From: Acidobacteriota bacterium
GTDB taxonomy: Bacteria > Acidobacteriota > Blastocatellia > Pyrinomonadales > Pyrinomonadaceae
Direction of reading: 5' to 3'
DNA: 64,000 bases
NCBI GenBank assembly: GCA_025463135.1
Contig: JAOAPY010000016.1
Coordinates: 1-64,000 of the forward strand
Shown here: positions 555-48,192 of the stretch, piece after piece
Position numbering within the stretch: position 1 is the first letter of the stretch
How the letters are laid out: each line of letters starts with the position of its first letter
Translations under genes and position numbers: made by a program
Notes under the pieces: model-generated
Told to the model about the DNA's origin: nothing
What the model saw: only the letters and a program-made list of their open reading frames with translations
Database searches by the model: none

Positions 555-577
555 GTCCGACAAGCTTCAGCTTGTCG
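555..577. repeat. REP-like palindrome, GACAAGCTTCAGCTTGTC type
   Basis: Short inverted repeat reading gtccgacaagcttcagcttg and onward, just after the stop of the DUF4214 gene. It belongs to the same family as hairpins at 10981, 20626, 21153, 30690 and 48065 (stem GACAA(A/G)CT, loop TTCA or TTTA). Confidence 0.7.
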
Positions 578-10731: not shown

Positions 10732-11263
10732 GAGTTGTCTCTCCTGTGGATGAGAGGTTGAGTTGACTGAGCCTTTTCAGACAAGGCCAAATCCCAATTA
10801 CAAAGCCGAGTAGATAATTCTTTACTCCCGTAAGAGCAGGCTGTCAAGAAAAAGGCGGGATGACTTTGCAGGCCGTTGTCAGCCAAAGGTCAGTCCAGGA
10901 TCCTCAGTGCGCCGCAGGTTTTCCATAGGGTCAAACAAAACTACCCACCGACCTGGTAGTGGGTCAGTTTCGCGGCAAATGTCCGACAAACTTTAGTTTG
11001 TCGCGGCGTTACGACAAGCTAAAGCTCATCGGACATCAAACTGCACCACTACCAACCGACCTCACCCGCTTGCAATTATTTCTGAAATAGGCCAATATTT
11101 GCAGCGCTTTTGCATTCTGAGTTTCTCCCTGCTCGCGCAAGAGCAGACCGTCAAATTTCAGGGAGTTTACCAGCAAATTTGCGCTCGACAGGGCTCAGTA
11201 TTGATTGGATCCGCAGGATTATTCAAAGACCCCCACAGCTTTTACTTAGGAGATTAGAAAGAT
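10732..11263. other. Divergent intergenic region with MITE
   Basis: 532 bp between the Cys-rich peptide gene (minus) and the radical SAM gene (plus). Holds the MITE copy at 10955-11053 and must contain both promoters; I could not identify convincing -35/-10 pairs. No other gene seen. Confidence 0.6.
10955..11053 (+). mobile_element. MITE, copy A (TIRs, internal REP hairpins, 9 bp direct repeats)
   Basis: 99 bp. Left end GGTAGTGGGTCAGTTT, right end AAACTGCACCACTACC (terminal inverted repeats, 14 of 16 matching). Inside are two REP-like hairpins in opposite orientation (gtccgacaaactttagtttg... and ...acaagctaaagctcatcgga). The flanks read caccgacct (10946-10954) and aaccgacct (11054-11062): a 9 bp direct repeat with 8 matches, as expected of a target-site duplication. 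It is nearly the reverse complement of copy B at 30636-30738. No transposase, so non-autonomous. Confidence 0.85.
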
Positions 11264-12523
11264 ATGGCCGAGATACAGGAGAACCTACAAGCCGGCACCG
11301 ATGCGGCCCCTTTCCGCATCGACGCGAAGCTGCACCAGATTCTTTACAAGACGGAAGAGCGTGCGAAGCTCCAGTCGAAGGGTGAAATGCTGCCGGAACC
11401 GGTTTATCCGATGAAGCCTAATCCGGTTGAGATGACCGAGCGTCAGTATCAGAAGCTGAACGCGATCCGCACGTGGAAGACGTGGGGTGCTCCGTATTTC
11501 AAATCTCGCTGGCACAACAAAGAAGTGCGGCCGATCATTCCTTTCCTCTTCACGGAATGGAAGTGCAACCTCGATTGTCACTACTGCTGGTCCTACAACA
11601 ATGCCGTTAAGGGCATGACCGAGGATACGGCAAAGCAATCGATCGACTGGTTGCATTCAATTGGCTCGCGCGTACTCGCACTGATGGGCGGCGAGCCGCT
11701 GCTCCGGCCAAAGTTCATTCACAAGATTGTCAGCTACAGCGCCAAGAAAGACATCTTTGTTTACCTGCCGACCAACGGCCGGTTGATGAAGCCCGAAGTC
11801 ATCGATCAGCTTGGCGATGCCGGCATTGCCACGGTGAACCTCGCGGTGGATTCAGTCAAAGAGCGCAAGTCTTTGCCGAAGGCTTTCGAACCCATCAAGC
11901 CCTACTTTGATTATCTCGTGAAGCGCCAGCGTTACTATGGCTACACGGTGATGTTCAATATCAACATCTGCCATAACAACATGGACGATGTGAAGGAACT
12001 CACTGAGATTGCTCATGCCAGCGGCATCGCGACCGACTATCACATCAACGAAACACCGATGACTGAGCAGGATCACTTCAAGCATCTAACGGAGAACCAG
12101 ACCTATCTGACTCCGGAAGACTGGCCGAAGGTTGATGCGTTGTTGGATTACCTGAATGACAAACGTGTCAACGAAGGCTACAAGATGGTCAATCCCATCC
12201 AGCATATGCAGGACATGAAGCTGTTGATGCGTGGTGACGTGCCACCCTGGCAGTGTCGTGCGGGCCAGAACTCATTGATCATTCGCACTGACGGCACGCT
12301 GGCCCCCTGCTTCCCGATGTATTCGGCGACACACGACTGGGGCGTAGTAGGTGCGCATAAGTTCGACACCAAGCAGCTTGACGACATGAAAGTTGATTGC
12401 ACCAAGCACTGCCTTTCGACTTGCAACTACATTCTCGGTTACTGCTATGACACGCTGCGCGTGATGACCTGGGCCGCCAAGCAGGCCAAGAACGGATTCA
12501 AGGGAGCGACCGGCAGCTTCTAG
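11264..12523 (+). CDS. Radical SAM protein with SPASM-like C-terminal cysteines
   Basis: 419 residues. The radical SAM [4Fe-4S] motif is at residues 101-108: C-NLD-C-HY-C-W (CxxxCxxC). 'ALMGGEPLLRP' is the GGEP SAM-binding motif, and 'VYLPTNGRLMKPEVI' and 'TVNLAVDSVKER' continue the partial TIM barrel. The C-terminal part has cysteines in 'WQCRAGQNSLIIRTDGTLAPCFPM' and 'CTKHCLSTCNYILGYCYD', a SPASM/twitch-like auxiliary cluster region. Members with SPASM modify peptides or proteins or act in cofactor maturation. AGGAGAT precedes the ATG. Divergent from the Cys-rich peptide group; a functional link is possible but unproven. Followed by a terminator. Confidence 0.85.
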   Translation: MAEIQENLQAGTDAAPFRIDAKLHQILYKTEERAKLQSKGEMLPEPVYPMKPNPVEMTERQYQKLNAIRTWKTWGAPYFKSRWHNKEVRPIIPFLFTEWKCNLDCHYCWSYNNAVKGMTEDTAKQSIDWLHSIGSRVLALMGGEPLLRPKFIHKIVSYSAKKDIFVYLPTNGRLMKPEVIDQLGDAGIATVNLAVDSVKERKSLPKAFEPIKPYFDYLVKRQRYYGYTVMFNINICHNNMDDVKELTEIAHASGIATDYHINETPMTEQDHFKHLTENQTYLTPEDWPKVDALLDYLNDKRVNEGYKMVNPIQHMQDMKLLMRGDVPPWQCRAGQNSLIIRTDGTLAPCFPMYSATHDWGVVGAHKFDTKQLDDMKVDCTKHCLSTCNYILGYCYDTLRVMTWAAKQAKNGFKGATGSF

Positions 12524-18148: not shown

Positions 18149-21100
18149 ATGAACGATCTCTTCGTCCTTGTCATTTTCCTGGTCGTTTTTTTCACACTGA
18201 TCACTCTGATCGGTCATGGAATCTGGATCCTCCTGCGCTGGCTCATCCGCCAACTAACCGGCAGAGACTCTTCCGAACCACAGGTCGAGAGATCCCTTCA
18301 GTCCTACTGTTCTCGATGCCAGGCCCCCATTTCGCCAAACATCACATTCTGCGGTCACTGCGGAGCCCCGCGGCCTTCTAACATCGTGGTCGAGTTGCTC
18401 AAGGATTTGGCTGCGACTGAAAGACAACTGGTAAGATTTCGACGCGCCGGCGCGATCCAAGACGACGTTTACGACGATCTTAAGAACCGAATTCAGGCCG
18501 AACGGACAAGACTCGGTAATCGCGAAGCTGCGCCGCCCGTTAGAATCGCGCCGGCCCCAGCGCTGGATCTCAGCAGGCAACAGCCGGCATCGGTCACGGA
18601 TTCCGCCCATGAAAAAGCTGTACCTGATGTTTCGCCCTCAGTAGTTGTCGTTTCCGAATCCACTGCAACCAGCTCAGTCGTTATCGATGTTGACAAGGCG
18701 ACAGTTCGGGTTGAAGACCGTGTGTTTGCACGCGAAGCGCGCGTCACTTCGGAACAGGAACAGCAGGCACCGCCGCCGCCACGCGCTGCCGCGCCACGCA
18801 AGCCCTTCACCGAAGTGCTCGCTGCCTTTATGGAGCAGAGCAACATTCGCTGGGGGGAGATTATCGGGGGCTTGCTGATTATTGGTTGTTCTACTGCTTT
18901 GGTCGTGAGTCTTTGGGCGCAGATCTCGAGCATCCCCGTTCTGAAGTTTTTGATCTTCACTACGGTCACGGCCGCCCTGTTCGGTGTCGGTCTTTACACA
19001 GAGCACCGTTGGAAGCTGCCGACCACCAGTCGCGGGATCTTGACGATCGCGACCCTGCTCGTCCCTTTGAACTTTCTGGCGATAGCAGCGGTTTCAGGGG
19101 GCACGATTCCGCCAGGTTCGCTGGTGATTGGCAGCGAACTGATAGCGCCGGCGCTCTTCTTGTGCCTGGTCTATTTTGCCGGCCGAGTGATCACTCCGAA
19201 GTGGCCGCATTTGTTGGCGGCGGGTGTGCTGGGCTCGTCGGTGGGCCAACTATTGATTCGCCATTTCGCGGCGTCCGACAACTCTCCCGAGTTGTTGTTG
19301 GCGTTGGGCGCGTTCCCTGTGATCTGTTACGCAGCGGCGGCGGCCTGGATGCTTTGGATTGCGCTTGCCGACAGCGAGATTGATGAGAGTGAAACAGGCG
19401 CGATCTTTATCACGCTGGGGGCGCTTACATTTGCGGCGCTGTTACCGTTCGGGCTCTTGCTTTACAAGAGCGGACCAGTGTCGATGACCATGATGTATCT
19501 GGCGCCGCTGGTCACGCTGGGTGGTGTGCCCATGCTGGCAAGCGGAACATTGCTTTGGAAGCGCGTGCTCGCGAAAGAGCTGGCAGCCTCGCGCACAGCC
19601 GGAACCAGCATCGGGATCATCGGCACAATGATCGTCATATCCGGCATGATCCTGGCTTGGCCCAATCCGGCGAGCATTGTGCCGGCGGCGCTTTTGAACT
19701 TCGCAGTACTCACGGCGCTGGCGGTGCTGCTCGAATTGTCCTTCGCACATTTCGTGGCCGCGATTTGTTTCTCACTGGCTTACGTTGTCCTCTTTCATGT
19801 CTTGGCCGGACATGTGCCCTGGCAGAACCTGCGTATCGTCTCGCTCCTCGATGTCACAACCAGCGTGAGCAGCGGCCAGGCGCTGGTACTGCTATTTGCA
19901 CTCTTCGTGGTCACTTCCGAATGGCTGGCCGCGAAAAAGCGAAGCAGGGATAGTGTCTCGTACTTGTTTGCCGCCTGCGCAGTGGCAATCACTAGTCTGC
20001 TTTACCTGACTGAGTATGGATTCGATGTCCCCGGTGATCCCTATGGTGTTTGGATCTGCTTGCTGCTGTATGCGCTGGGAGCATTCTGGCTGGCGAGGCG
20101 AAGAGTACTCCCGATCTTTACCTGGATCGGCGCAGGCCTGTTGCTCTTTTCGTTGTTTCAGGCCCTTGGACCATGGCTCGGCAGGTCGTTCCCCTGGCAG
20201 ACCGCAATGCTCATTCATGCGTCCGTGTGTGCCTGCATAGCCATTATTGGCAGTCGTTATTGCGAACTCACTTATCGATCGCTCGTCAAGCCCTTGAATA
20301 GTGCTGCACTGGTGACCTCGTTTGCGGTGCTGTGGTGTTTGCTGCAGGCGAATAACTGGGAAACGACAGCGATGCAGGCCGAGCGCGTCTTCTGGATCGC
20401 TGGAATCTGGATGGCGCTATTGTGGCTGAATCGCGATTGGCGATTGTTTACTGTCTTTCAGATCGCACTCACGGGCGCTGTAGTGCTGGCGATCAAAGCA
20501 AGTCTGCAACAGTACGAATGGTACGCGTACCTGCCGCACGCATTTCTGCATCCGACAGCCCTGCAGATTCAAACGACTGCGTTGGTGATGTTGAGCCTGA
20601 CCTGGGTTGGCGTCCGCTATTTAGTGTCCGACAAACTTCAGTTTGTCGATTCTCTCGACACCGCGCCGCCCAGTGAAGCGCAAGACATCCGCGATCCCGC
20701 CGAGCCCCTGGCTGCTAAGAGCGAGCACTGGACCACTGCGGCGCGTCGCTTGCTGAAACTAAACTATGCCTTTGATCGCCTGGTCACGTGGGCAGTGCTA
20801 GGGTCATTCGCATTGCTCGTTATCTATGGAGTGTTCTCTGGCGTCAGGCAGGAATTAACTGCGCTTGGCAGCGCCACTCAAGTGTGGAACATAGTCGGCT
20901 TTCCTCACCAGGAGGCGCTTGGACCAGGCTCCTGGATCCTGCTTGGGTTGCTGGTCATCGTCATGCTCGCAAATCTTTGGGAAAGGCGGCACGCCGATTA
21001 TCTGTTGGGGGCGGTTGTAGCGCTCGCCCTTATTTGTCCGCTGCTGGCGGGAAGATGGGAAACACAGATAGCCACCGCATCAGCCTGGCGGTGGTTTGCG

Positions 21101-24100
21101 GCGATCTTCTTAGTTGTTGCCTCCACGCCAGTATGGTTTCGAGAGTGGCTGGGTCCGACGAACTTCAGTTTGTCGTGGTCGGGGCGGGAAACTGTTTACG
21201 CAAAGCGACGACAAACTGAAGTTTATCGGACTCTCGTGCGGCGCGTACGAATTCTGTTGCTGGCCACGACGCTCACGCCCTTGTTGGTGCTGACGGCTTA
21301 TCCGGCGCTGCGATCGATTTATTATCTGCCGGTCCATGGCTCAGCAGCCGGGATCTTCTATGTGCTCGGCGACAGGATTTCCTACAGCATTCCGCTTTTG
21401 ATTGCGGCGCTAGCGCTGGTTGCCTACGCACTACGCGAACGTTTGGTCACATATGCGTTTGCGGCGGGCCTGCTTTTCAACGTGACCTTGACCATGGTGT
21501 ATCTCCTGTCGGTAGTATCAGTTCAGGCCAGCATGGATCGGGTGGTATCGGCGCACGTCCTGTATCTGAACGCGATCGCCGCTGCGCTTTACGCCATCGT
21601 CTGGTTGAGCATGCGACCGCGCTGGCTGCGCCGCTTGCCTGATCAATTGGTCGCGAAAGCAGAATGGTTCCTTGGAATTCAAGTGGCACTGGCGATCGCT
21701 GCCGACAAGATGGTGATCGTTCCGGTGGCAATTCGACTTGCCGATGAACCTGGCTGGGCCGGAGTCGGAACGTGGGCAGCTGGAAGTGCTACCGCATGGC
21801 TGGCGTTGGCGCTAACCACTATTGCTGCAGTTTGGTTTGGCGTCGCGTATCAAAAGAAGATCAGCGCCCTCGGCCTCAGCGCCTTCCTGTTGGGGACAGG
21901 TTGTCTCTCAGCCTTCACTGTAGCGCGTTGGAATCCGGCTGAGTGGTCCGGCTTTCATGCATTGCTGGTTGCGGCCGCGGTGGCCGCCTGGTTGATGTGC
22001 CTGGCCAGGTTACTGCCTTCGCTTTTCGAAAGACGGCGTCTTGGCTTTGTATCAGATCTATTGATGCGCTTTAACTCTAACCCGTTCTCGCAGAGCTGGC
22101 AGCGCGATGCCTCGCTAATGGCGACCTGCATCGGAGGGTTGAGTGTCGTCCTGGCTTTACGGGTTGCGTATTACGATCCTGGCGGACCATGGTGGTCCAT
22201 CGGCACGCTGATCACGATGAGTGGTCTGGCCGCGTCCTTGAACTGGCAAACACTGCGGCGCGGATATTTGTACGCGGCGGGAATTCTGGTCGGCGTTGCG
22301 ACTTTCATCTGGTGGACCACTCAGTGGGCCGCACGCTATCCGGGTCCTTCGCGCCCTCTGGATGTGATTGTTAGCGCGTTGTGCTTGTCCAGTGTTCTCT
22401 GGTTAGCGCTCGAGTTGCGCGCGCGACGGAAGGGAGCTGGGAACAAGAGTACTGCGGGGTCTTTCCATAATCTGGCGGCTGTTACGTCCCTGTCTATCAT
22501 GGCCATCATCGTTGCCCTGCGATTGCTTGGTGTTCTCCTTGGCTTTCATGCTTCGGACACCGCGGGTTTTGACTGGTTGGCAGTCTTGTCGCTGACGGTC
22601 CTGATGATTGGCTGTATCTGGGACGAACGAGCGAAGTATGCAGTAGCCGGTTTGTATCTAACCGGTTTGATCATGATTGTCATTACATCAGCCCGCTTTG
22701 AACTTAGGCTGTCGCGATTGGTTTGGGCCTTGCTGATGATGCTGGCGACTTACGCGTTGAGTACCAGTGTGCTTTGGCGCCGGCGTGAGAGGATTATTTC
22801 CGGGTTGGCGCGGCTGGGAATTCCACGGCGTCTTGAGCCGAATGCTGCTCAGTTGCGGTGGCTCTCAGTTTTCAATTTGCTGCTGATAGCCGCAGTTGTG
22901 GCTTTAACCTACCTTATCGATTATGCAGTTAAGGACAAAACGCTAAGGCTTTCCGCGGCATTAGCAGTTGCGATACAAGCTTTCACGTTCAACCTGTTGA
23001 CTGCGGGCGACCGCAAAGGAGGCTGGAAAAGGACTGCGCTCGCCGTCTTCGTAGTGGGGCTGGTCTTCTTTGGCTGGGGTTGGTTGGTGCCGGGGCTGAC
23101 AGACACCTGGTTGAATCGCGCGGTGATCCTGATGGTGGAAATGTTCGGCACTGTCGCTCTCTTCGGTCTCGAGCTGGATAAGGTGTTCGCACGAAAACCG
23201 GAGTGGGCCAATGCCATCCGAGCCTGTGTGCCGTGGTTAACGGGCGTTGGCCTGATGGCGCTCATCTTTGTGCTTTGCACTGAGGTCTTCTATCAAATTG
23301 AGTTTGGCGCCGTGCGCGTCTCGCCATTGGCGCTCGTGACCGTTGGCGTTACCCTGGCGGCGGCTTCGATCATTTGCATTCTCTTCGCACTCTCGCCTAA
23401 ACACGATCCGCTTAATCTGTCGGAAAAGCGGCGCCGGAATTATGTGTATGTCGCCGAGGTAATGGTGGCCCTGCTCTTCATGCACATACGCCTGACGATG
23501 CCCTGGCTGTTCACCGGTTTCTTTGAGCGCTATTGGCCCATCGTCGTGGTGGCGATCGCTTACGTCGGCGTTGCCGCGAGCGAACTGCTGCGCCGGCGCG
23601 GCGTGTTGGTGCTGGCCCATCCGATTGAGCGCACCGGGGTGTTTCTGCCGCTGCTGCCTGTGCTGGGCTTTTGGCTGACGAAGCCGGAAGTAGATTATTC
23701 CGTGCTCTTGTTTATCATCGGCGGTCTCTACGGACTCGTATCGATTCTCCGGCAATCCTTTGTCTTTGGCATTCTGGCGGTGCTGGCCGGCAATGGCGGC
23801 CTGTGGTACCTGTGGCACCGCACCAGCGATTTAGGATTTCTGCAACACCCGCAGCTGTGGCTGATCCCAGTGGCTGGTTCAGTGCTGATAGCCGCCTATC
23901 TCAACCGCGATGATTTCTCTGAAGAGCAAATGATCGGCATTCGCTATCTCGCGCTGATTACCATCTATGCGTCGTCAACCGCGGACATCTTCATCAATGG
24001 CGTGGCCCGATCGCCATGGCTGCCGATGATCCTGGCGGCATTGTCTTTGGCAGGTGTCTTCGGCGGCATAATGCTTCGCATCCAGGCTTTTCTACTGCTC

Positions 24101-24292
24101 GGATCGCTCTTTTTGCTGTTGGCGATAACGACCATGATCTACTATGCCTCGGCGAACTTAGGCTGGACCTGGTTGTGGTATGTTGCCGGCATTGTAACCG
24201 GCGCAATGATCATCTTCACTTTCGCATTGTTTGAAAAGAAGCGGGACGAGATGTTGCGTGTAGTTGAAGGTCTGAAGGAATGGGAACGGTAG
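18149..24292 (+). CDS. Giant polytopic membrane protein with N-terminal zinc ribbon
   Basis: 2047 residues. Residues 4-30 form one TM helix; 54-71 are a zinc ribbon (C-SR-C, then C-GH-C, 'CGAPRP'); about 84-122 is a SHOCT-like helix pair ('LAATERQLVRFRRAGAIQDDVYDDL'); then an Ala/Pro-rich linker to ~220. From ~235 ('IRWGEIIGGLLIIGCSTALVVSLW') to the end the protein is a long succession of hydrophobic helices, several dozen in total, with short charged loops; the first part resembles DUF2157-type membrane proteins. No catalytic motif seen. Two loops (around residues 826-834 and 1002-1028) are encoded by REP-like repeats inserted in frame. Function unknown; possibly envelope or polysaccharide related. 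Confidence 0.8.
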   Translation: MNDLFVLVIFLVVFFTLITLIGHGIWILLRWLIRQLTGRDSSEPQVERSLQSYCSRCQAPISPNITFCGHCGAPRPSNIVVELLKDLAATERQLVRFRRAGAIQDDVYDDLKNRIQAERTRLGNREAAPPVRIAPAPALDLSRQQPASVTDSAHEKAVPDVSPSVVVVSESTATSSVVIDVDKATVRVEDRVFAREARVTSEQEQQAPPPPRAAAPRKPFTEVLAAFMEQSNIRWGEIIGGLLIIGCSTALVVSLWAQISSIPVLKFLIFTTVTAALFGVGLYTEHRWKLPTTSRGILTIATLLVPLNFLAIAAVSGGTIPPGSLVIGSELIAPALFLCLVYFAGRVITPKWPHLLAAGVLGSSVGQLLIRHFAASDNSPELLLALGAFPVICYAAAAAWMLWIALADSEIDESETGAIFITLGALTFAALLPFGLLLYKSGPVSMTMMYLAPLVTLGGVPMLASGTLLWKRVLAKELAASRTAGTSIGIIGTMIVISGMILAWPNPASIVPAALLNFAVLTALAVLLELSFAHFVAAICFSLAYVVLFHVLAGHVPWQNLRIVSLLDVTTSVSSGQALVLLFALFVVTSEWLAAKKRSRDSVSYLFAACAVAITSLLYLTEYGFDVPGDPYGVWICLLLYALGAFWLARRRVLPIFTWIGAGLLLFSLFQALGPWLGRSFPWQTAMLIHASVCACIAIIGSRYCELTYRSLVKPLNSAALVTSFAVLWCLLQANNWETTAMQAERVFWIAGIWMALLWLNRDWRLFTVFQIALTGAVVLAIKASLQQYEWYAYLPHAFLHPTALQIQTTALVMLSLTWVGVRYLVSDKLQFVDSLDTAPPSEAQDIRDPAEPLAAKSEHWTTAARRLLKLNYAFDRLVTWAVLGSFALLVIYGVFSGVRQELTALGSATQVWNIVGFPHQEALGPGSWILLGLLVIVMLANLWERRHADYLLGAVVALALICPLLAGRWETQIATASAWRWFAAIFLVVASTPVWFREWLGPTNFSLSWSGRETVYAKRRQTEVYRTLVRRVRILLLATTLTPLLVLTAYPALRSIYYLPVHGSAAGIFYVLGDRISYSIPLLIAALALVAYALRERLVTYAFAAGLLFNVTLTMVYLLSVVSVQASMDRVVSAHVLYLNAIAAALYAIVWLSMRPRWLRRLPDQLVAKAEWFLGIQVALAIAADKMVIVPVAIRLADEPGWAGVGTWAAGSATAWLALALTTIAAVWFGVAYQKKISALGLSAFLLGTGCLSAFTVARWNPAEWSGFHALLVAAAVAAWLMCLARLLPSLFERRRLGFVSDLLMRFNSNPFSQSWQRDASLMATCIGGLSVVLALRVAYYDPGGPWWSIGTLITMSGLAASLNWQTLRRGYLYAAGILVGVATFIWWTTQWAARYPGPSRPLDVIVSALCLSSVLWLALELRARRKGAGNKSTAGSFHNLAAVTSLSIMAIIVALRLLGVLLGFHASDTAGFDWLAVLSLTVLMIGCIWDERAKYAVAGLYLTGLIMIVITSARFELRLSRLVWALLMMLATYALSTSVLWRRRERIISGLARLGIPRRLEPNAAQLRWLSVFNLLLIAAVVALTYLIDYAVKDKTLRLSAALAVAIQAFTFNLLTAGDRKGGWKRTALAVFVVGLVFFGWGWLVPGLTDTWLNRAVILMVEMFGTVALFGLELDKVFARKPEWANAIRACVPWLTGVGLMALIFVLCTEVFYQIEFGAVRVSPLALVTVGVTLAAASIICILFALSPKHDPLNLSEKRRRNYVYVAEVMVALLFMHIRLTMPWLFTGFFERYWPIVVVAIAYVGVAASELLRRRGVLVLAHPIERTGVFLPLLPVLGFWLTKPEVDYSVLLFIIGGLYGLVSILRQSFVFGILAVLAGNGGLWYLWHRTSDLGFLQHPQLWLIPVAGSVLIAAYLNRDDFSEEQMIGIRYLALITIYASSTADIFINGVARSPWLPMILAALSLAGVFGGIMLRIQAFLLLGSLFLLLAITTMIYYASANLGWTWLWYVAGIVTGAMIIFTFALFEKKRDEMLRVVEGLKEWER
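20626..20648. repeat. REP-like hairpin inside the giant membrane protein gene
   Basis: gtccgacaaacttcagtttg tcg, matching the outer arm of 48065-48092 over 23 bases. It is read in frame as 'VSDKLQFVD' in a soluble loop between TM segments. Confidence 0.85.
21153..21231. repeat. Inverted pair of REP-like hairpins inside the giant membrane protein gene
   Basis: gtccgacgaacttcagtttg tcg (21153-21175) and cgacaaactgaagtttatcg gac (21209-21231) form an inverted pair with ~33 bp between. The whole block is in frame and encodes about 26 residues ('TNFSLSWSGRETVYAKRRQT'). Confidence 0.85.
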
Positions 24293-26526: not shown

Positions 26527-29400
26527 TCAAGGGTTGCTCAGAGGTGTTGCGGTGGGTTGAGGCTTGTCCTTCATTTCCTCGGAAGGGGTCGATGCGCATT
26601 TTACGTGAAACTGCACGCTCTGAGATTTGACGCTCGTCGGGGATGTAATCTGAAGGTAAACGGAACCGCCGTTAGATACCCTGAAAATTGCTCCAACTAA
26701 TTTGGTGCCAGGCTCCTCAAAAGCCAAAGGTCGCTCCGGCCACGAACGACCACCCAAAACAAATCTGTACTTAACCGTGCCACTCGCCCCCCCCACGGAA
26801 ATTCGTCCGAATACTCGAACACTGCCGGGGCAGGGTCCGGAATAGTCCTGAACCGAGACTTTTGTTTCCTCAATTGTCGGCTTAAGGACACCCACGTCCC
26901 ATACCATGGCGGTATGATCTTCACTGGACGTGACCGCCAGATTACCGTCTTTGCTGAACTCAGCAGACCGAACCGGTTTTATATGCGCCTTCAGTTCGTA
27001 AAGCAGCGTACCTGAAGCATCCCAGACCCGTGATGTTCGATCTCCCCCCCAGGTGATTACTCTCGTGCCGTCGCTGCTAAAGTGGGCGCCGTGAACTTCA
27101 GCCGAGTATCCCGTCAATTCTTTTATGAGTTCCCTGGTCTTAACACTCCAAAGACGGGCTGTTCGGTCCTCGCTTGCCGTGACCATCGTCTTGTTATTCC
27201 TGGCGTACTCCGCAAAATAGACGGGACCCTGATGACCCTTAAATACTTTGATCAACTCGCCGCTTTTAGAATTCCAGAGTTTGGCAAACCAATCGTCGCT
27301 CGCCGTCAGAATTTCCTTTCCATCAGGAGTGAAAACTGCGGCATTGATCGGGCCATCATGCCGAACCTGGCGGATGGGGGTTCCGGTGAGCGCATCCCAC
27401 ACCCACGCTGTGGAATCGGCCCCGGCAGTGACCAGCAAGGGGCCTTGTGTACTCCACTCGATGTCGTTTACTCGACCGGTATGACGACGTAACCACTGTG
27501 CTTCTTGTTTCTCATTGACATCCCAAACTATCCCAACTCCAACATTGTCGCTGCTCGCCAGCAGTTGTTTATTTGTAGGTGAAAATGCAACTCTCCTGAC
27601 TTCACCGTTGTGACCCTTCAGGTGGTAATAAAATCCGTTGTTCGGATCCCAGAGGGTCACGAGGTTTGAGCTGGCGATTGCCACCAGGGTGCCATCCGAA
27701 TTGAAGGCGACATCAGTAACCGGCGGTTCAAGTTCGACCCGACGCAGCTCTTGTCCGTTCGCTGTGTTCCACAAGCGAGCTGTACCGTCGTCGCTCACCG
27801 TGGCTACCCTGCTTCCGTCCGGGCTGAATATGGCTTTGTTGACGCTGCCGGAGTGCCCCCTGAGCAGCGCATGAAAGTATGGGAGTTCCTTCACCTGCAA
27901 GGCTCGCGAGAAGACTTCAGTTTCGTACTGCTTTCTTACCTCATCAGCTTGGGCCTCGGCTTTCTTGGCCATTCTTGCCTGTGTGTTGGCTTTTCGTGCC
28001 TGGATGAATGCAAACACCCCCAGCAAGATGACTATCAGGGAAACGGCTATGGCAATTGCCGCGATCGTCCTTGCGCGGCGGGACCTGGCGGCGGCTGTCT
28101 TCTGTTGATGAAGTAGAAGATCTCTCCCGCGAGCGAGCTTGTTTCGTTCTCTTTCCGTCTCCTTCTCGACTGTATAGCGGGATAACCAACCCAGCACCGC
28201 ACGGGCGAGTACTTCGTGAAATATTTCAAAGCGACCGTTACCGCCCGGAGTGGAAGGACCTTCGCGCAGAATACGCCCATTTACGAGTTGGTCCAGAACC
28301 GGCAGCAGCACTTCCTCTTTTTCTTTCGTGTAGCCCACCAGATCCGTAACTGAGAGAGCAATCTTTAAGCCCGATGGCGTGACTAGATGATAGAAAATCT
28401 TCGCTGCGACTTTCTTGTCAGAGTCAGGCAGACTGTTCATCTCGTCATCCAAATGACTGTTTACAATTGTTTGGGTGTTACCCAACCTTATCAGCGTGAT
28501 TAGTCTCAAAACGCGCGACTTCTGACGCATTTCCTCTTCCCACAGCCTTGTCATTACAATCTGGAGCAGAGGCGCTTCAATCGGAGCATCGTCGGAGATC
28601 GAGACCGACTCCATGTCGATCGTCTCATGACCTGTTTGACCGGTGGTTGCCCGCCCCACCGCAATTTGACTAACCACTTCAGAGATTAATCGTTCCTCGA
28701 TGTCGTAAGGGGGATCTGCGTCAAACCTTTTGTTATAGACACGGATAGGACTCCTAATTACATCGTGGGCCGTTTTTGTTCTCAAATGTTCAATGCGCAA
28801 ATAGTTGTCGAATAGCTTGGGGATCTTGCCCTTGAATACGTCGAGTTTGGACAGGGCATCTTCCCTTATTGAGATAAGAAAGTTGGCTCGCAGGGCCGAA
28901 CTGTTGACAGCATTTGAGAGCTCGTCTGCAAACACAGCGGAATGGTCGGGCTTGTAATGAAGAAAATAGTATTCGAACTGGTCGAGGATGATCAGGAAAT
29001 CGCTGTTGAGATGCTTAGACCAGGTTTCAATGGTCTTAACCAGGGTAGGTTCGCTTACTGTAAGCTGGTCGCCCGGCATAAGCGCAGCCGCCGCGTCGTT
29101 GATGGCTTTTATCAGCGCTTCGACCGGATTTTCGCGCCACTCGCTAAACACCACGACTACGAACTCGGGGCGCCCGTCGTTTTCAATATTCTCCAGCGCC
29201 AACTCGTGCAGATCGTGAGAAACACCCGCCCGTAGGACTGAGGTCTTACCGACACCTGCTGGTCCATAGAACAGGGTTAGTTTCGCCCCCATCAAGTTGA
29301 ACGCAATGGTTCGCCTTTCCTTGTCGCGGCCGAAGAAGAAAGGTTCATCGGCTTCGGAATACGGCGCCAGGCCTACATATGGTTTGTGAGGGAGACTCAT
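26527..29400 (-). CDS. STAND (nSTAND1-type) ATPase with TM helix, WD40 propeller and Ig-like C-terminus
   Basis: 957 residues. 'YVGLAPYSEADEPFFFGRD' is the usual nSTAND1 opening; Walker A GPAGVGKTS is at 46-54, Walker B 'FLIILDQFEYYF' at 135-146, and an Arg-containing 'LISIRED' follows. A winged-helix-like region ends near 405, then a basic coiled segment, a TM helix (~446-466) and another coil. Residues ~511-845 carry eight WD40 blades ('GHSGSVNKAIFSPDGS...ARLWN' and so on), and the last ~100 an Ig-like beta domain. STAND proteins oligomerise on ligand sensing to activate an effector. Its start codon overlaps the SIR2 stop (ATGA), so the pair is translationally coupled. Nearby sequence looks more AT-rich than the neighbours. 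Confidence 0.9.
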   Translation of the reverse strand: MSLPHKPYVGLAPYSEADEPFFFGRDKERRTIAFNLMGAKLTLFYGPAGVGKTSVLRAGVSHDLHELALENIENDGRPEFVVVVFSEWRENPVEALIKAINDAAAALMPGDQLTVSEPTLVKTIETWSKHLNSDFLIILDQFEYYFLHYKPDHSAVFADELSNAVNSSALRANFLISIREDALSKLDVFKGKIPKLFDNYLRIEHLRTKTAHDVIRSPIRVYNKRFDADPPYDIEERLISEVVSQIAVGRATTGQTGHETIDMESVSISDDAPIEAPLLQIVMTRLWEEEMRQKSRVLRLITLIRLGNTQTIVNSHLDDEMNSLPDSDKKVAAKIFYHLVTPSGLKIALSVTDLVGYTKEKEEVLLPVLDQLVNGRILREGPSTPGGNGRFEIFHEVLARAVLGWLSRYTVEKETERERNKLARGRDLLLHQQKTAAARSRRARTIAAIAIAVSLIVILLGVFAFIQARKANTQARMAKKAEAQADEVRKQYETEVFSRALQVKELPYFHALLRGHSGSVNKAIFSPDGSRVATVSDDGTARLWNTANGQELRRVELEPPVTDVAFNSDGTLVAIASSNLVTLWDPNNGFYYHLKGHNGEVRRVAFSPTNKQLLASSDNVGVGIVWDVNEKQEAQWLRRHTGRVNDIEWSTQGPLLVTAGADSTAWVWDALTGTPIRQVRHDGPINAAVFTPDGKEILTASDDWFAKLWNSKSGELIKVFKGHQGPVYFAEYARNNKTMVTASEDRTARLWSVKTRELIKELTGYSAEVHGAHFSSDGTRVITWGGDRTSRVWDASGTLLYELKAHIKPVRSAEFSKDGNLAVTSSEDHTAMVWDVGVLKPTIEETKVSVQDYSGPCPGSVRVFGRISVGGASGTVKYRFVLGGRSWPERPLAFEEPGTKLVGAIFRVSNGGSVYLQITSPTSVKSQSVQFHVKCASTPSEEMKDKPQPTATPLSNP

Positions 29401-30392
29401 TTCGTTAGGTTGATTTGGCTTTCTCCAGAGAAGAAAGCCTCTAACTGCAGAACATATTCGTCCAATTCCATCCGCAGAATGGCAACCTCTTTCTTTTTCC
29501 AGTACAGCTCTTCAAACTCGGAAGACTTGTTCATTACTGCCCACGATGCGAAGTTCTGGTCTCGTTGGTCTCGACGGATTCGATATAAGAACGCCCGCAG
29601 ATTCCAGTCATGCAATCCGTACCCTAAGAAAAGGAAGTGACTCTGGTTTAGCTGAGCGTTCAATGAGCGAGGGAGGGCTTGGGCTATGTCTCCATGAGCT
29701 AAGTACTTAATGTAATCGTCTTCGGTAATTACAAAGTTATCCCCTTCGACTGAACCATGCACTTTGAGAATTATTGGATGATCGTCGTCGTCCAGCCGGT
29801 CGTAAGTTGTACCGTTTCTTATGGTGGTTGAAACTCCGTTTGGGGCCTTATGTTCGAAGGCAGGTACGTTGTCCTTGGAACGATATGTAATCTCATGAAA
29901 ATCTTCACCTGCCTCGCGAAAGGCAGTAGCCATCACATCGTCATAGTTCGTCGTCACGATCAGGAGATGTTTTTTGAATTCGTGCGCGAGCCGGTCGGTC
30001 TTCGGCCGGCGCGCTTGCCGGTATCGGTTGGGGAGTGTGGCCAGGAAGGTATGCAGAGGTGTAGGAGAGATTTCCCCGCTAAATACGGGCCTCAATTCGA
30101 CATCAAGTCGCCCGCGCCCATAAATCAAATCGGCATACTGCGAGACTCGGGCAAGATTGGTCTTGAGATCAGGAATCTTATCTGGCGGGTAAGGCAGTGT
30201 GGTTGCAATGTGTTCAATCAGCTCCAGGCTGTTTGGCAGTCGGGGTGAATCAATGTCCCACACCTCTTTCCCGGCCCCACAGAGGTTGGCCCCAGCACCA
30301 AGAAACGGAACAACCCTGCCGGCAAGAATGCTGGTTCCTACAGCGCGAAGATGTGTGTCCGGGTCACGATCAAAGGCCTGTTCGGTCATCAT
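29397..30392 (-). CDS. SIR2-like domain protein, probable NADase effector
   Basis: 331 residues from the ATG at 30392 (a second ATG follows directly). SIR2 fold hallmarks: 'VVPFLGAGANLCG' (NAD-binding GAGAN at 32-36), 'LLIVTTNYDDVM' (TTNYD, Asn149) and 'ILKVHGSVEGDNFVITEDDYI' (catalytic-type His212), then 'FLFLGYGLHDWNLR'. This pattern is shared with the SIR2 domains of bacterial defence systems (Thoeris ThsA, DSR, SIR2-containing Avs), which degrade NAD+ on activation, rather than with deacetylase sirtuins, whose zinc Cys motif is absent. Shares ATGA with the STAND gene. A MITE lies 244 bp upstream of its start. Effector role is inferred. Confidence 0.85.
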   Translation of the reverse strand: MMTEQAFDRDPDTHLRAVGTSILAGRVVPFLGAGANLCGAGKEVWDIDSPRLPNSLELIEHIATTLPYPPDKIPDLKTNLARVSQYADLIYGRGRLDVELRPVFSGEISPTPLHTFLATLPNRYRQARRPKTDRLAHEFKKHLLIVTTNYDDVMATAFREAGEDFHEITYRSKDNVPAFEHKAPNGVSTTIRNGTTYDRLDDDDHPIILKVHGSVEGDNFVITEDDYIKYLAHGDIAQALPRSLNAQLNQSHFLFLGYGLHDWNLRAFLYRIRRDQRDQNFASWAVMNKSSEFEELYWKKKEVAILRMELDEYVLQLEAFFSGESQINLTK

Positions 30393-30869
30393 ATGAGACT
30401 GACGATGTCTACCAACAGATACTAGTCCTCGCTGGCTGGTTCCGCTCCCGAAAAGGCCCGCCGAGCGACTTGCGGCGAGACAGAATACGTTCAAGAGGTA
30501 TCAGAACGGCTGAAGTGATGACGACACCGATCTAACTTAGAGTCTGGGAAGATTGGTGTCAGCTGAGATGTTGCGAGAACTGCGCGCAGCACTCTAAGCG
30601 AAGGCCTGCCTTGTGTCAATGGTGAAGTCTGAGAAGGTAGTGGGTCAGTTTGATGTCCCGATAAGCTTTATTAGCTTGTCGTAACGCCGCGACAAACTAA
30701 AGTTTGTCGGACATTTGCCGCGAAACTGACCCACTACCGTCTGAGCATGGTGAGGTCCGAGAACCGCACAGGAACAAACCCGGATATAGGCGACGATGCA
30801 ATAGTATGAGGAATTACCAATTCAAGAAATACGAGGAGCTTCCAGGCGCTCGCGACACTTGGCCACGTT
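30393..30869. other. Upstream region of the SIR2/STAND operon
   Basis: 477 bp between the SIR2 start and the next gene's stop. Contains MITE copy B (30636-30738). The 244 bp between MITE and SIR2 start presumably holds the operon promoter; no clear -35/-10 pair identified and no other gene is convincing. Confidence 0.5.
30636..30738 (-). mobile_element. MITE, copy B (perfect 16 bp TIRs, 9 bp direct repeats)
   Basis: 103 bp. Ends are GGTAGTGGGTCAGTTT and AAACTGACCCACTACC, a perfect 16 bp terminal inverted repeat. Internal REP-like hairpins as in copy A, in reverse orientation; overall nearly identical to the reverse complement of 10955-11053 apart from a few substitutions and small indels around 30660-30675. 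Flanks gtctgagaa (30627-30635) and gtctgagca (30739-30747) form a 9 bp direct repeat with one mismatch. Confidence 0.88.
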
Positions 30870-31517
30870 TCACGAGGGTGCGACCTTGACTGCCTGCTGT
30901 TTGAGACTCTTGATTAGTTTCTCAGCCTCATCGTGAGTGAGTAAGCGATAGGCAGGCTGATGTTTTTTCTCATACGTCACGCTGTGATGAATCGCCGGAT
31001 ATTTCTTCGGATCCGTCTCCTCATCAAGGCGACGCCATTCGGGCCAGTTTAGATTGCCGACGGGTTTTCGATCGAGTGACATACCCAGCGTGTTCCAGGC
31101 AATATGAAAGGCGGCTTCGTCATCGACCATGAAACCTTTTCCGGTTTGGTCGCCGGGAAAGTCTTTGGCGCTTTGCAGGAACGCCGCTAAAAGATCTTCC
31201 AGCTTGCCGCCGCGCGCGCGGAACGGTCGCAGGTTAAAGCGGCCGACTTTTTCATCCTGGCGCAACGGTTCCCAAAGCTTTTCGTCAGGCAAAGGTTGGC
31301 CCAGCGAACCCCACTCGCGCTGCAGTTCTTCCCGAACTGTCTTTTCGTCAGTGATGGCGTGGGCATTGCCGCGCGTCGCCTGATGGAGCCATTTGTAAGC
31401 ATCTTCGACGCGGACGCTATCATCGCCCTGCAGCTTGTCGCGAGCGAAGTCTGCAAGCTCCGGCTGCTGACCCAACGAGCAGAGCAACAATAATGAAGCA
31501 AGTATCGTGGAAGTCAT
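30870..31517 (-). CDS. Exported hypothetical protein
   Basis: 215 residues. Short signal peptide 'MTSTILASLLLLCSLGQQ'. The rest is helical and hydrophilic: 'RVEDAYKWLHQATRGNAHAITDEKTVREELQREWGSL', 'FNLRPFRARGGKLEDLLAAFLQSAKDFPGD', 'NWPEWRRLDEETDPKKYPAIHHSVTYEKKHQPAYRLLTHDEAEKLI'. The 'AYKWLHQATRGN' opening and the 'HHS' segment are distinctive but I cannot name the family. Start lies 5 bases after the M14 peptidase stop, so the two are one transcription unit and this may act with that peptidase in the periplasm. Confidence 0.65.
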   Translation of the reverse strand: MTSTILASLLLLCSLGQQPELADFARDKLQGDDSVRVEDAYKWLHQATRGNAHAITDEKTVREELQREWGSLGQPLPDEKLWEPLRQDEKVGRFNLRPFRARGGKLEDLLAAFLQSAKDFPGDQTGKGFMVDDEAAFHIAWNTLGMSLDRKPVGNLNWPEWRRLDEETDPKKYPAIHHSVTYEKKHQPAYRLLTHDEAEKLIKSLKQQAVKVAPS

Positions 31518-48064: not shown

Positions 48065-48192
48065 AAAATGTCCGACAAACTTCAGTTTGTCGCTTTCCCG
48101 GTAGCACGGACTTCAGTCTGTTAACCAGGTCCGGGACACAGACTCAAGCCTGTGCTACTCAATTCGACAAACTGAAGTTTGTCGGACATTTT
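48065..48192. repeat. Nested REP-like element, 28 bp perfect outer arms
   Basis: Outer arms 48065-48092 (aaaatgtccgacaaacttca and on) and 48165-48192 are exact reverse complements over 28 bp. Inside lie agcacggacttcagtctgt and acagactcaagcctgtgct, a second, imperfect inverted pair. Fills the ybeY-CNNM gap. Confidence 0.88.

Follow-up and report, generated by a model that had tools for sequence, protein, structure and literature searches.

REPs are very common bacterial repeats, for whose spread RAYT transposases are usually held responsible. Transposition of the IS200/IS605 type proceeds without target duplication; the IS1 family duplicates 8-9 bp of its target. A REPIN, as described in PMC3116915, consists of two inverted REPs folding into a hairpin; it is non-autonomous, and its movement is attributed to a RAYT. 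Such a transposition leaves no target duplication (PMC2817692). The nearest precedent for a MITE that holds a REP is QMITE2 of Coxiella burnetii, an element of 150-190 bp with terminal inverted repeats, an inner GTAG REP, and direct repeats of 7-11 bp, mostly 9 in the rows of Table 1; its small copies are essentially REPs (PMC5896051). The REP passages found in a 2024 review of prokaryotic MITEs concern QMITE2 (PMC10969869). In A. variabilis and H. neapolitanus, REP doublets regularly lie inside one longer inverted repeat, and palindromes free of REPs are given as not found in the part of PMC3733652 that treats them.

The window analysed here is a stretch of 64,000 nucleotides (G000:C31:1-64000) from a draft assembly of 6.48 Mb in 56 contigs. 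An initial annotation had proposed that it holds two copies of a MITE with common 16-bp ends, two internal REP-like hairpins, 9-bp flanking repeats with one mismatch each, and no transposase. Both copies are confirmed in the window sequence: copy A, 99 bp long, at 10955-11053, and copy B, 103 bp long, at 30636-30738 in the opposite orientation. From left to right, copy A is laid out as a target-site duplication (10946..10954, unstranded, caccgacct), a left terminal inverted repeat (10955..10970, + strand, GGTAGTGGGTCAGTTT), a first REP arm (10978..11003, +, AATGTCCGACAAACTTTAGTTTGTCG), a spacer (11004..11011, +, CGGCGTTA), a second REP arm that is inverted and more diverged (11012..11037, -), a right terminal inverted repeat (11038..11053, -), and the right-hand duplication (11054..11062, unstranded, aaccgacct). 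Copy B has a left duplication (30627..30635, unstranded, gtctgagaa), a terminal inverted repeat (30636..30651, +), a diverged REP arm (30652..30681, +), a REP arm AATGTCCGACAAACTTTAGTTTGTCG (30690..30715, -), a second terminal inverted repeat (30723..30738, -), and a right duplication (30739..30747, unstranded, gtctgagca). The flanking repeats are as claimed, 9 bp with one mismatch in each copy; the common ends hold exactly in copy B, and in copy A the right end, GGTAGTGGTGCAGTTT, has 2 mismatches. With 3 mismatches allowed, the 16-bp end has 4 matches in the window, where 0.23 would be expected.

Both copies are intergenic with respect to ORFs of at least 100 aa, none of which overlaps either of them, in agreement with an element that carries no transposase. 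A radical SAM gene (11264-12523, +) lies downstream of copy A, and copy B has a SIR2-like gene (29397-30494, -) on one side and an ORF (30870-31517, -) on the other. The region 26527-30494 (-) is a possible defence locus: its SIR2-like protein, of 365 aa, matches Pfam SIR2_2 (2e-26) and the PADLOC ThsA model (1e-13), and the adjoining protein, of 957 aa, matches a PADLOC HEAT/ARM model (7e-15). Folded as a single strand, copy A gives one long stem with interruptions; in copy B, inner hairpins are closed off by an outer stem.

Both patterns recur in the genome, the ends as had been anticipated: allowing up to 2 mismatches, the 16-bp end has 72 + 71 matches and its reversed pattern 6 + 3; allowing up to 3, the MITE centre has 50 + 36 matches and the control 0. 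The centre count puts the family at about 86 copies, a few of which are inner duplications within single copies; copy number is taken from the pattern counts of end and centre because blast scored the best 40 of 280 candidates. At G000:C15:87433-87520 and C17:55-110, the inner part of the MITE is tandemly triplicated or duplicated, with a period of 30-31 bp.

Target duplications were surveyed in 55 distinct two-ended copies of 60-135 bp, with ends at up to 4 mismatches, from part of the loci of the genome. An exact 9-bp direct repeat flanks 18 of them (two within a tandem array), an exact 8-bp repeat flanks 8, and a 9-bp repeat with 1 mismatch flanks 7; three copies have a 9-bp repeat with 2 mismatches, three an 8-bp repeat with 1 mismatch, and 16 have no direct repeat, five of these being units of tandem arrays. 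The first three kinds combined account for 33 of the 55 copies, whereas they occur in only 15 of 2964 pairs when left and right flanks are taken from different copies. This is strong evidence that the MITE family moved by transposition, with duplications mostly of 9 bp, as had been argued from the two window copies; the length of 9 bp holds for most copies having a duplication, and gives way to 8 bp in a minority. The two observations named beforehand as contrary, ends that fail to recur and copies that lack flanking repeats, were not made, save for the 16 repeat-less copies. When the flanks of two insertions were joined as an empty site, they had no match in the DNA examined.

Some MITE units stand head to tail. 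Three of them follow each other at C32:115130-115444 (L231:1531-1845), with 9-bp spacers and a period of 108: both outer flanks are the identical 9 bp CGCTGGCTG, and the inner spacers are CGCCCTCAG and TGCTCTTGG. Head-to-tail units with the same spacer length and period are found at C17:15-359 (L230) and C35:25169-25340 (L065). Where C35 ends and C17 starts, the units are spaced by TGCCCTCAG; the last C17 unit is followed by TGCTCTTGG, identical to one of the C32 spacers, and the other C32 inner spacer nearly equals the 9-mer beside the C17/C35 array units. It is natural to conjecture that a single array is split between C35 and C17, and that such an array could move as one unit.

Inside the MITE, the REP AATGTCCGACAAACTTTAGTTTGTCG stands as an inverted doublet around a spacer of 8 bp. 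With up to 3 mismatches, the genome contains 135 + 139 matches to the 25-mer core of this REP and 0 to the reversed control: the interior is thus a REPIN, in the sense of two inverted copies of a genome-abundant REP. REP cores number 274 against the 86 MITE centres, and many of the retrieved REP sites, picked as looking end-free, are without MITE ends; these sites mostly have a TTCAG loop and longer, variable spacers, as opposed to the TTTAG loop and 8-bp spacer of the MITE. Within the window, inverted REP doublets without MITE ends are found at 48067..48190 (+), a pair of the same REP family with the TTCAG loop that folds into one long hairpin, and at 21157..21227 (+, with cores at 21157-21174 and 21210-21227). 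A single REP hairpin core without MITE ends lies at 20630..20647 (+), and a single REP-like hairpin with 3 mismatches at 559..576 (+). The sites at 20630-20647 and 21157-21227 are intragenic, inside a 2047-codon ORF (18149-24292). The two inner hairpins proposed for the window copies are therefore the arms of a doublet whose REP also occurs end-free, and the proposal of a MITE holding REP hairpins is supported genome-wide: among the sampled loci, a REP arm lies inside 126 of 132 distinct end sequences of the genome by script, and inside two more by eye. One of the four remaining end sequences, in L072, stands beside another palindrome that recurs in two other sampled loci.

Six RAYT-type Y1 genes (PF01797) are present in the genome. 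The host REP, at up to 5 mismatches, is absent from all six RAYT loci retrieved (about 3.2 kb each), none of which therefore shows a cognate RAYT flanked by the same REP, and RAYT-borne movement was set aside as a candidate on this ground. Moreover, a REPIN moved by a RAYT is expected without target duplication, and duplications of 8-9 bp flank 33 of the 55 MITE units. A search of the window for a REP-like target, with a loosely written pattern, came back blank and carries no weight.

The ends lead elsewhere. A scan for exact matches to the end, taking one genome per species, gave at least 114 stretches. Among the listed matches, at least seven elements of 1.9-4.4 kb combine such ends with exact 8-bp duplications and a transposase ORF (L086, L089, L099, L119, L127, L131 and L140, the partner end having at most 3 mismatches). 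The insertion sequence with matching terminal repeats that the initial annotation had suggested looking for is thus represented in other genomes, and no transposase with MITE-matching ends was found in the G000 assembly. With these elements, the window copies have all the properties of a MITE: they are short and noncoding, with inverted ends, a target duplication, and ends common to an autonomous element.

Two of the transposases, those of L119 and L127, were scanned against profiles. Both match the NCBIfam IS1 profile with E ~1e-13, at 50 bits against a curated cut-off of 100; Pfam DDE_Tnp_IS1 is above its cut-off for L127 and below it for L119. The IS6/IS240 profiles also match, more weakly, and Pfam IS240 passes its own cut-off for L119. 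An alignment of 9 of 15 transposases, from which a motif filter left out L089, L195, L313, L314, L315 and L316, has invariant residues that include D99, D171 and E234 (L119 numbering); judging from the alignment, these could be the DDE triad. The MITE-type elements show the 8-9 bp duplication value of the IS1 family. The likeness to IS1-like insertion sequences and the MITEs derived from them extends to the GGTAGTG start of the ends, a transposase with some relation to IS1 profiles, and the duplications; the differences are that the transposase is only distantly IS1-like, and that the interior in G000 is a REPIN instead of an IS remnant. Several elements with the same ends carry passenger ORFs, named by eye: ATPase-like and acetyltransferase-like in L119, Fic-like in L086, and HTH/peptidase-like in L131. 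In L156, which also has these ends, a transposase was not seen, and the ORFs look, again by eye, metal-related.

Candidates for the parent of the family were sought in G000 itself. A classical IS1 was rejected, PF03400 having no match in that genome. The one relative found there is an IS1-like gene on contig C40, 48% identical, with the right end GGTAGTGGCCTAATTT; its left end was looked for and not found. With a right end that differs and a left end that was not located, this gene was rejected as parent as well, a weak helper role being conceivable. A transposase match exists in 23 of the 60 genomes searched, and the best matches, at 63-68% identity, are in G012, G036, G040 and G044. A MITE-like end accompanies three of these four loci, and L312 (G036), 63% identical, ends in GGTAGTGTCCTAGTTT: end sequence and transposase similarity track each other imperfectly. 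Two transposase-bearing relatives have paired ends with 8-bp repeats, an exact pair in L314 and one mismatch in L320, and their ends are unlike those of the MITE.

The MITE itself was searched for in 60 genomes including G000, at most the best 15 candidates being scored per genome. Under these settings, 13 of the 60 genomes have a match of some kind, and near-full-length copies outside G000 are confined to G009 and G033, from one other genus of the same family; these two genomes have transposase fragments only. Several of their copies retain the interior, with ends decayed or missing, as would also be expected if the REPIN moved on its own. The host REP is present, with no full MITE, in the relatives G005, G023, G029, G044, G052 and G057. 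In G044, a genome of another family of the class, one REP (L299, G044:C17:45600-46600) is preceded by a decayed left end that matches MITE positions 1-49 at 86%. The MITE, or a relative of it, may consequently have a greater age and a range beyond two genera, and the case for the REP having come first is weaker for it.

The reading that best accounts for these observations, to which we give a probability of about 0.8, is that the MITE consists of a REPIN between IS1-like ends, and that a DDE transposase, since lost or absent from the assembly, moved it in trans. Its two terminal inverted repeats, IS1-like in nature, would enclose an inverted doublet of the host REP, and an IS1-like DDE transposase acting in trans would, we assume, read only both 16-bp ends, inserting the unit with a target duplication of 9 bp, or sometimes 8. 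The REPIN would be a passenger drawn from the resident REP population and occupying the place of the transposase gene; the family would then have expanded to about 86 copies, the matching transposase having since been lost or being missing from the draft. By inference, a transposase of this IS1-like DDE type moved the G000 family, the REP predates the MITE, and a capture step joined the two. Since duplications are 8 bp in 24 of 25 elements elsewhere, as described below, and predominantly 9 bp here, the actual transposase may differ from those sampled. Other points that count against this reading are the fruitless search of the G000 assembly for a transposase with matching ends, the 16 repeat-less copies, the joined flanks that matched nothing, the IS6/IS240 profile matches, and the imperfect tracking of ends and transposase. 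The hairpin interior may itself help: it could bring the ends of so short an element (100 bp) close to each other, or terminate transcription where the element inserts.

In a less likely history, the order was the reverse: the MITE would have come first, and the end-free REPs would be truncated copies whose inner hairpins outlasted their ends, as proposed for QMITE2, the small copies of which are so read in the relevant sections of PMC5896051. The many G009 and G033 copies reduced to an interior with decayed or missing ends lend themselves to such a history, and so does the G044 site matching positions 1-49. However, the end-free sites mostly have the TTCAG loop with long, variable spacers, not TTTAG with 8 bp; the REP is present in relatives without a full MITE match, and its 274 cores outnumber the 86 centres. 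We consider truncation unlikely as the origin of the end-free REPs. A reading that we find more doubtful still makes the REPIN the mobile part, and the ends a palindromic target for its RAYT-driven insertion. The genome does have six Y1 genes, and section 7 of PMC3733652 (Di Nocera et al.) reads REP dimers inside palindromes as target insertions. But the direct repeats sit outside the ends, elements with these ends and their own transposase exist elsewhere, and empty targets are nearly absent, a REP arm missing from only 4 of 132 end sequences; the lack of host REP at the six RAYT loci retrieved speaks in the same direction.

Finally, the copies could belong to a family of structured regulatory RNAs or terminators that spread by duplication without any transposition. 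They fold far better than their shuffles (DNA z of -7.3 and -8.2, RNA z of -7.8 to -10.7), which speaks for this reading. Target duplications at copies with unrelated flanks speak against it as a full account, and no Rfam family reached threshold in the window, so that we regard it as very improbable.

Short elements with these ends were defined by a length of 31-400 bp, one exact end, a partner end with at most 5 mismatches, and a flanking repeat of 8 or 9 bp, perfect or with one mismatch; at least 25 such elements are present among the at least 114 stretches, with repeats of 8 bp in 24 of the 25. The interior reaches 20 bp in 22 of them: 16 of these 22 interiors fold with z at or below -2, compared with 9 of 110 segments taken at random from the same loci (a control with fewer shuffles), and 13 of 22 have a perfect stem of at least 6, against 103 of 440 random segments. 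Three elements of 32-36 bp (L155:3959-3991, L123:5582-5613 and L182), flanked by 8-bp repeats with 0-1 mismatch, are barely more than two inverted ends, and are possibly the shortest mobile units of their kind.

Three genomes of different groups were picked since their inner hairpin looked REP-like; their counts show that the pattern recurs, and give no frequency. A site counts as having neither end if a search within some 200 bp, with up to 4 mismatches allowed, finds none. In G060, labelled Acidobacteriaceae (L145), 28 distinct REP sites, from 30 loci retrieved out of 46 matches, divide into 13 with both ends, 4 with one and 11 with neither; in G061 (Pedosphaera, L130), 21 sites divide into 6, 0 and 15, and in G062 (Chloroflexi, L114), 27 sites into 13, 8 and 6. 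The sites with neither end, above all in G061, may in part be MITEs with decayed ends. The same REP of G060 also lies within other inverted repeats, TGTTTCAAAAATAGG (L359, L365) and GTTGCATAAATG (L368), which apparently belong to other transposon families.

These observations allow a closer comparison with the systems described. Set against QMITE2, the likeness lies in the terminal inverted repeats, the direct repeats and the REP inside. Three things differ: the ends of the G000 MITE match an IS1-like transposon with transposase-bearing copies elsewhere; its interior is an inverted REP doublet, whose REP is also carried by relatives that lack the full MITE; and its ends recur around other REPs in three genomes from separate groups. 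With A. variabilis and H. neapolitanus, the boxing of REP doublets by a longer inverted repeat is shared, but section 7 of PMC3733652 speaks of target palindromes, and reports no target duplication or transposase. The doublet hairpin and the non-autonomy are those of REPINs as outlined in PMC3116915; the G000 unit adds DDE-type ends and target duplications. The suggestion that the combination was undescribed must accordingly be narrowed, as a MITE with an inner REP and REP dimers inside palindromes had both been published. No account of IS1-like ends around REPINs was found in the open-access literature searched, outside of which most subscription journals lie. What seems new is the IS1-like character of the ends, their reappearance around different REPs, and the tandem arrays, each apparently mobile as a whole.

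A more general conjecture can be put forward tentatively, at somewhat less than even odds: REPINs would have been captured repeatedly by DDE ends across many bacterial phyla, forming a general class of two-engine mobile repeats, in which the hairpin is favoured because it joins the ends of very short elements or insulates the insertion site, and in which REPs ride on DDE transposases and outlive them. The 16 of 22 interiors that fold, together with the G060 REP inside two other kinds of terminal repeats, support such a class. If REPs have a second route of spread, based on DDE transposases and taken again by unrelated REPs, the REP dimers reported inside longer palindromes since 2013 would be accounted for; nature would also have provided an experiment on the reason for the frequent hairpin interiors of short MITEs with these ends. 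The tandem arrangement, too, has a counterpart: in G060 (L345, L352), similar pairs of units are found, with spacers of 8 bp.
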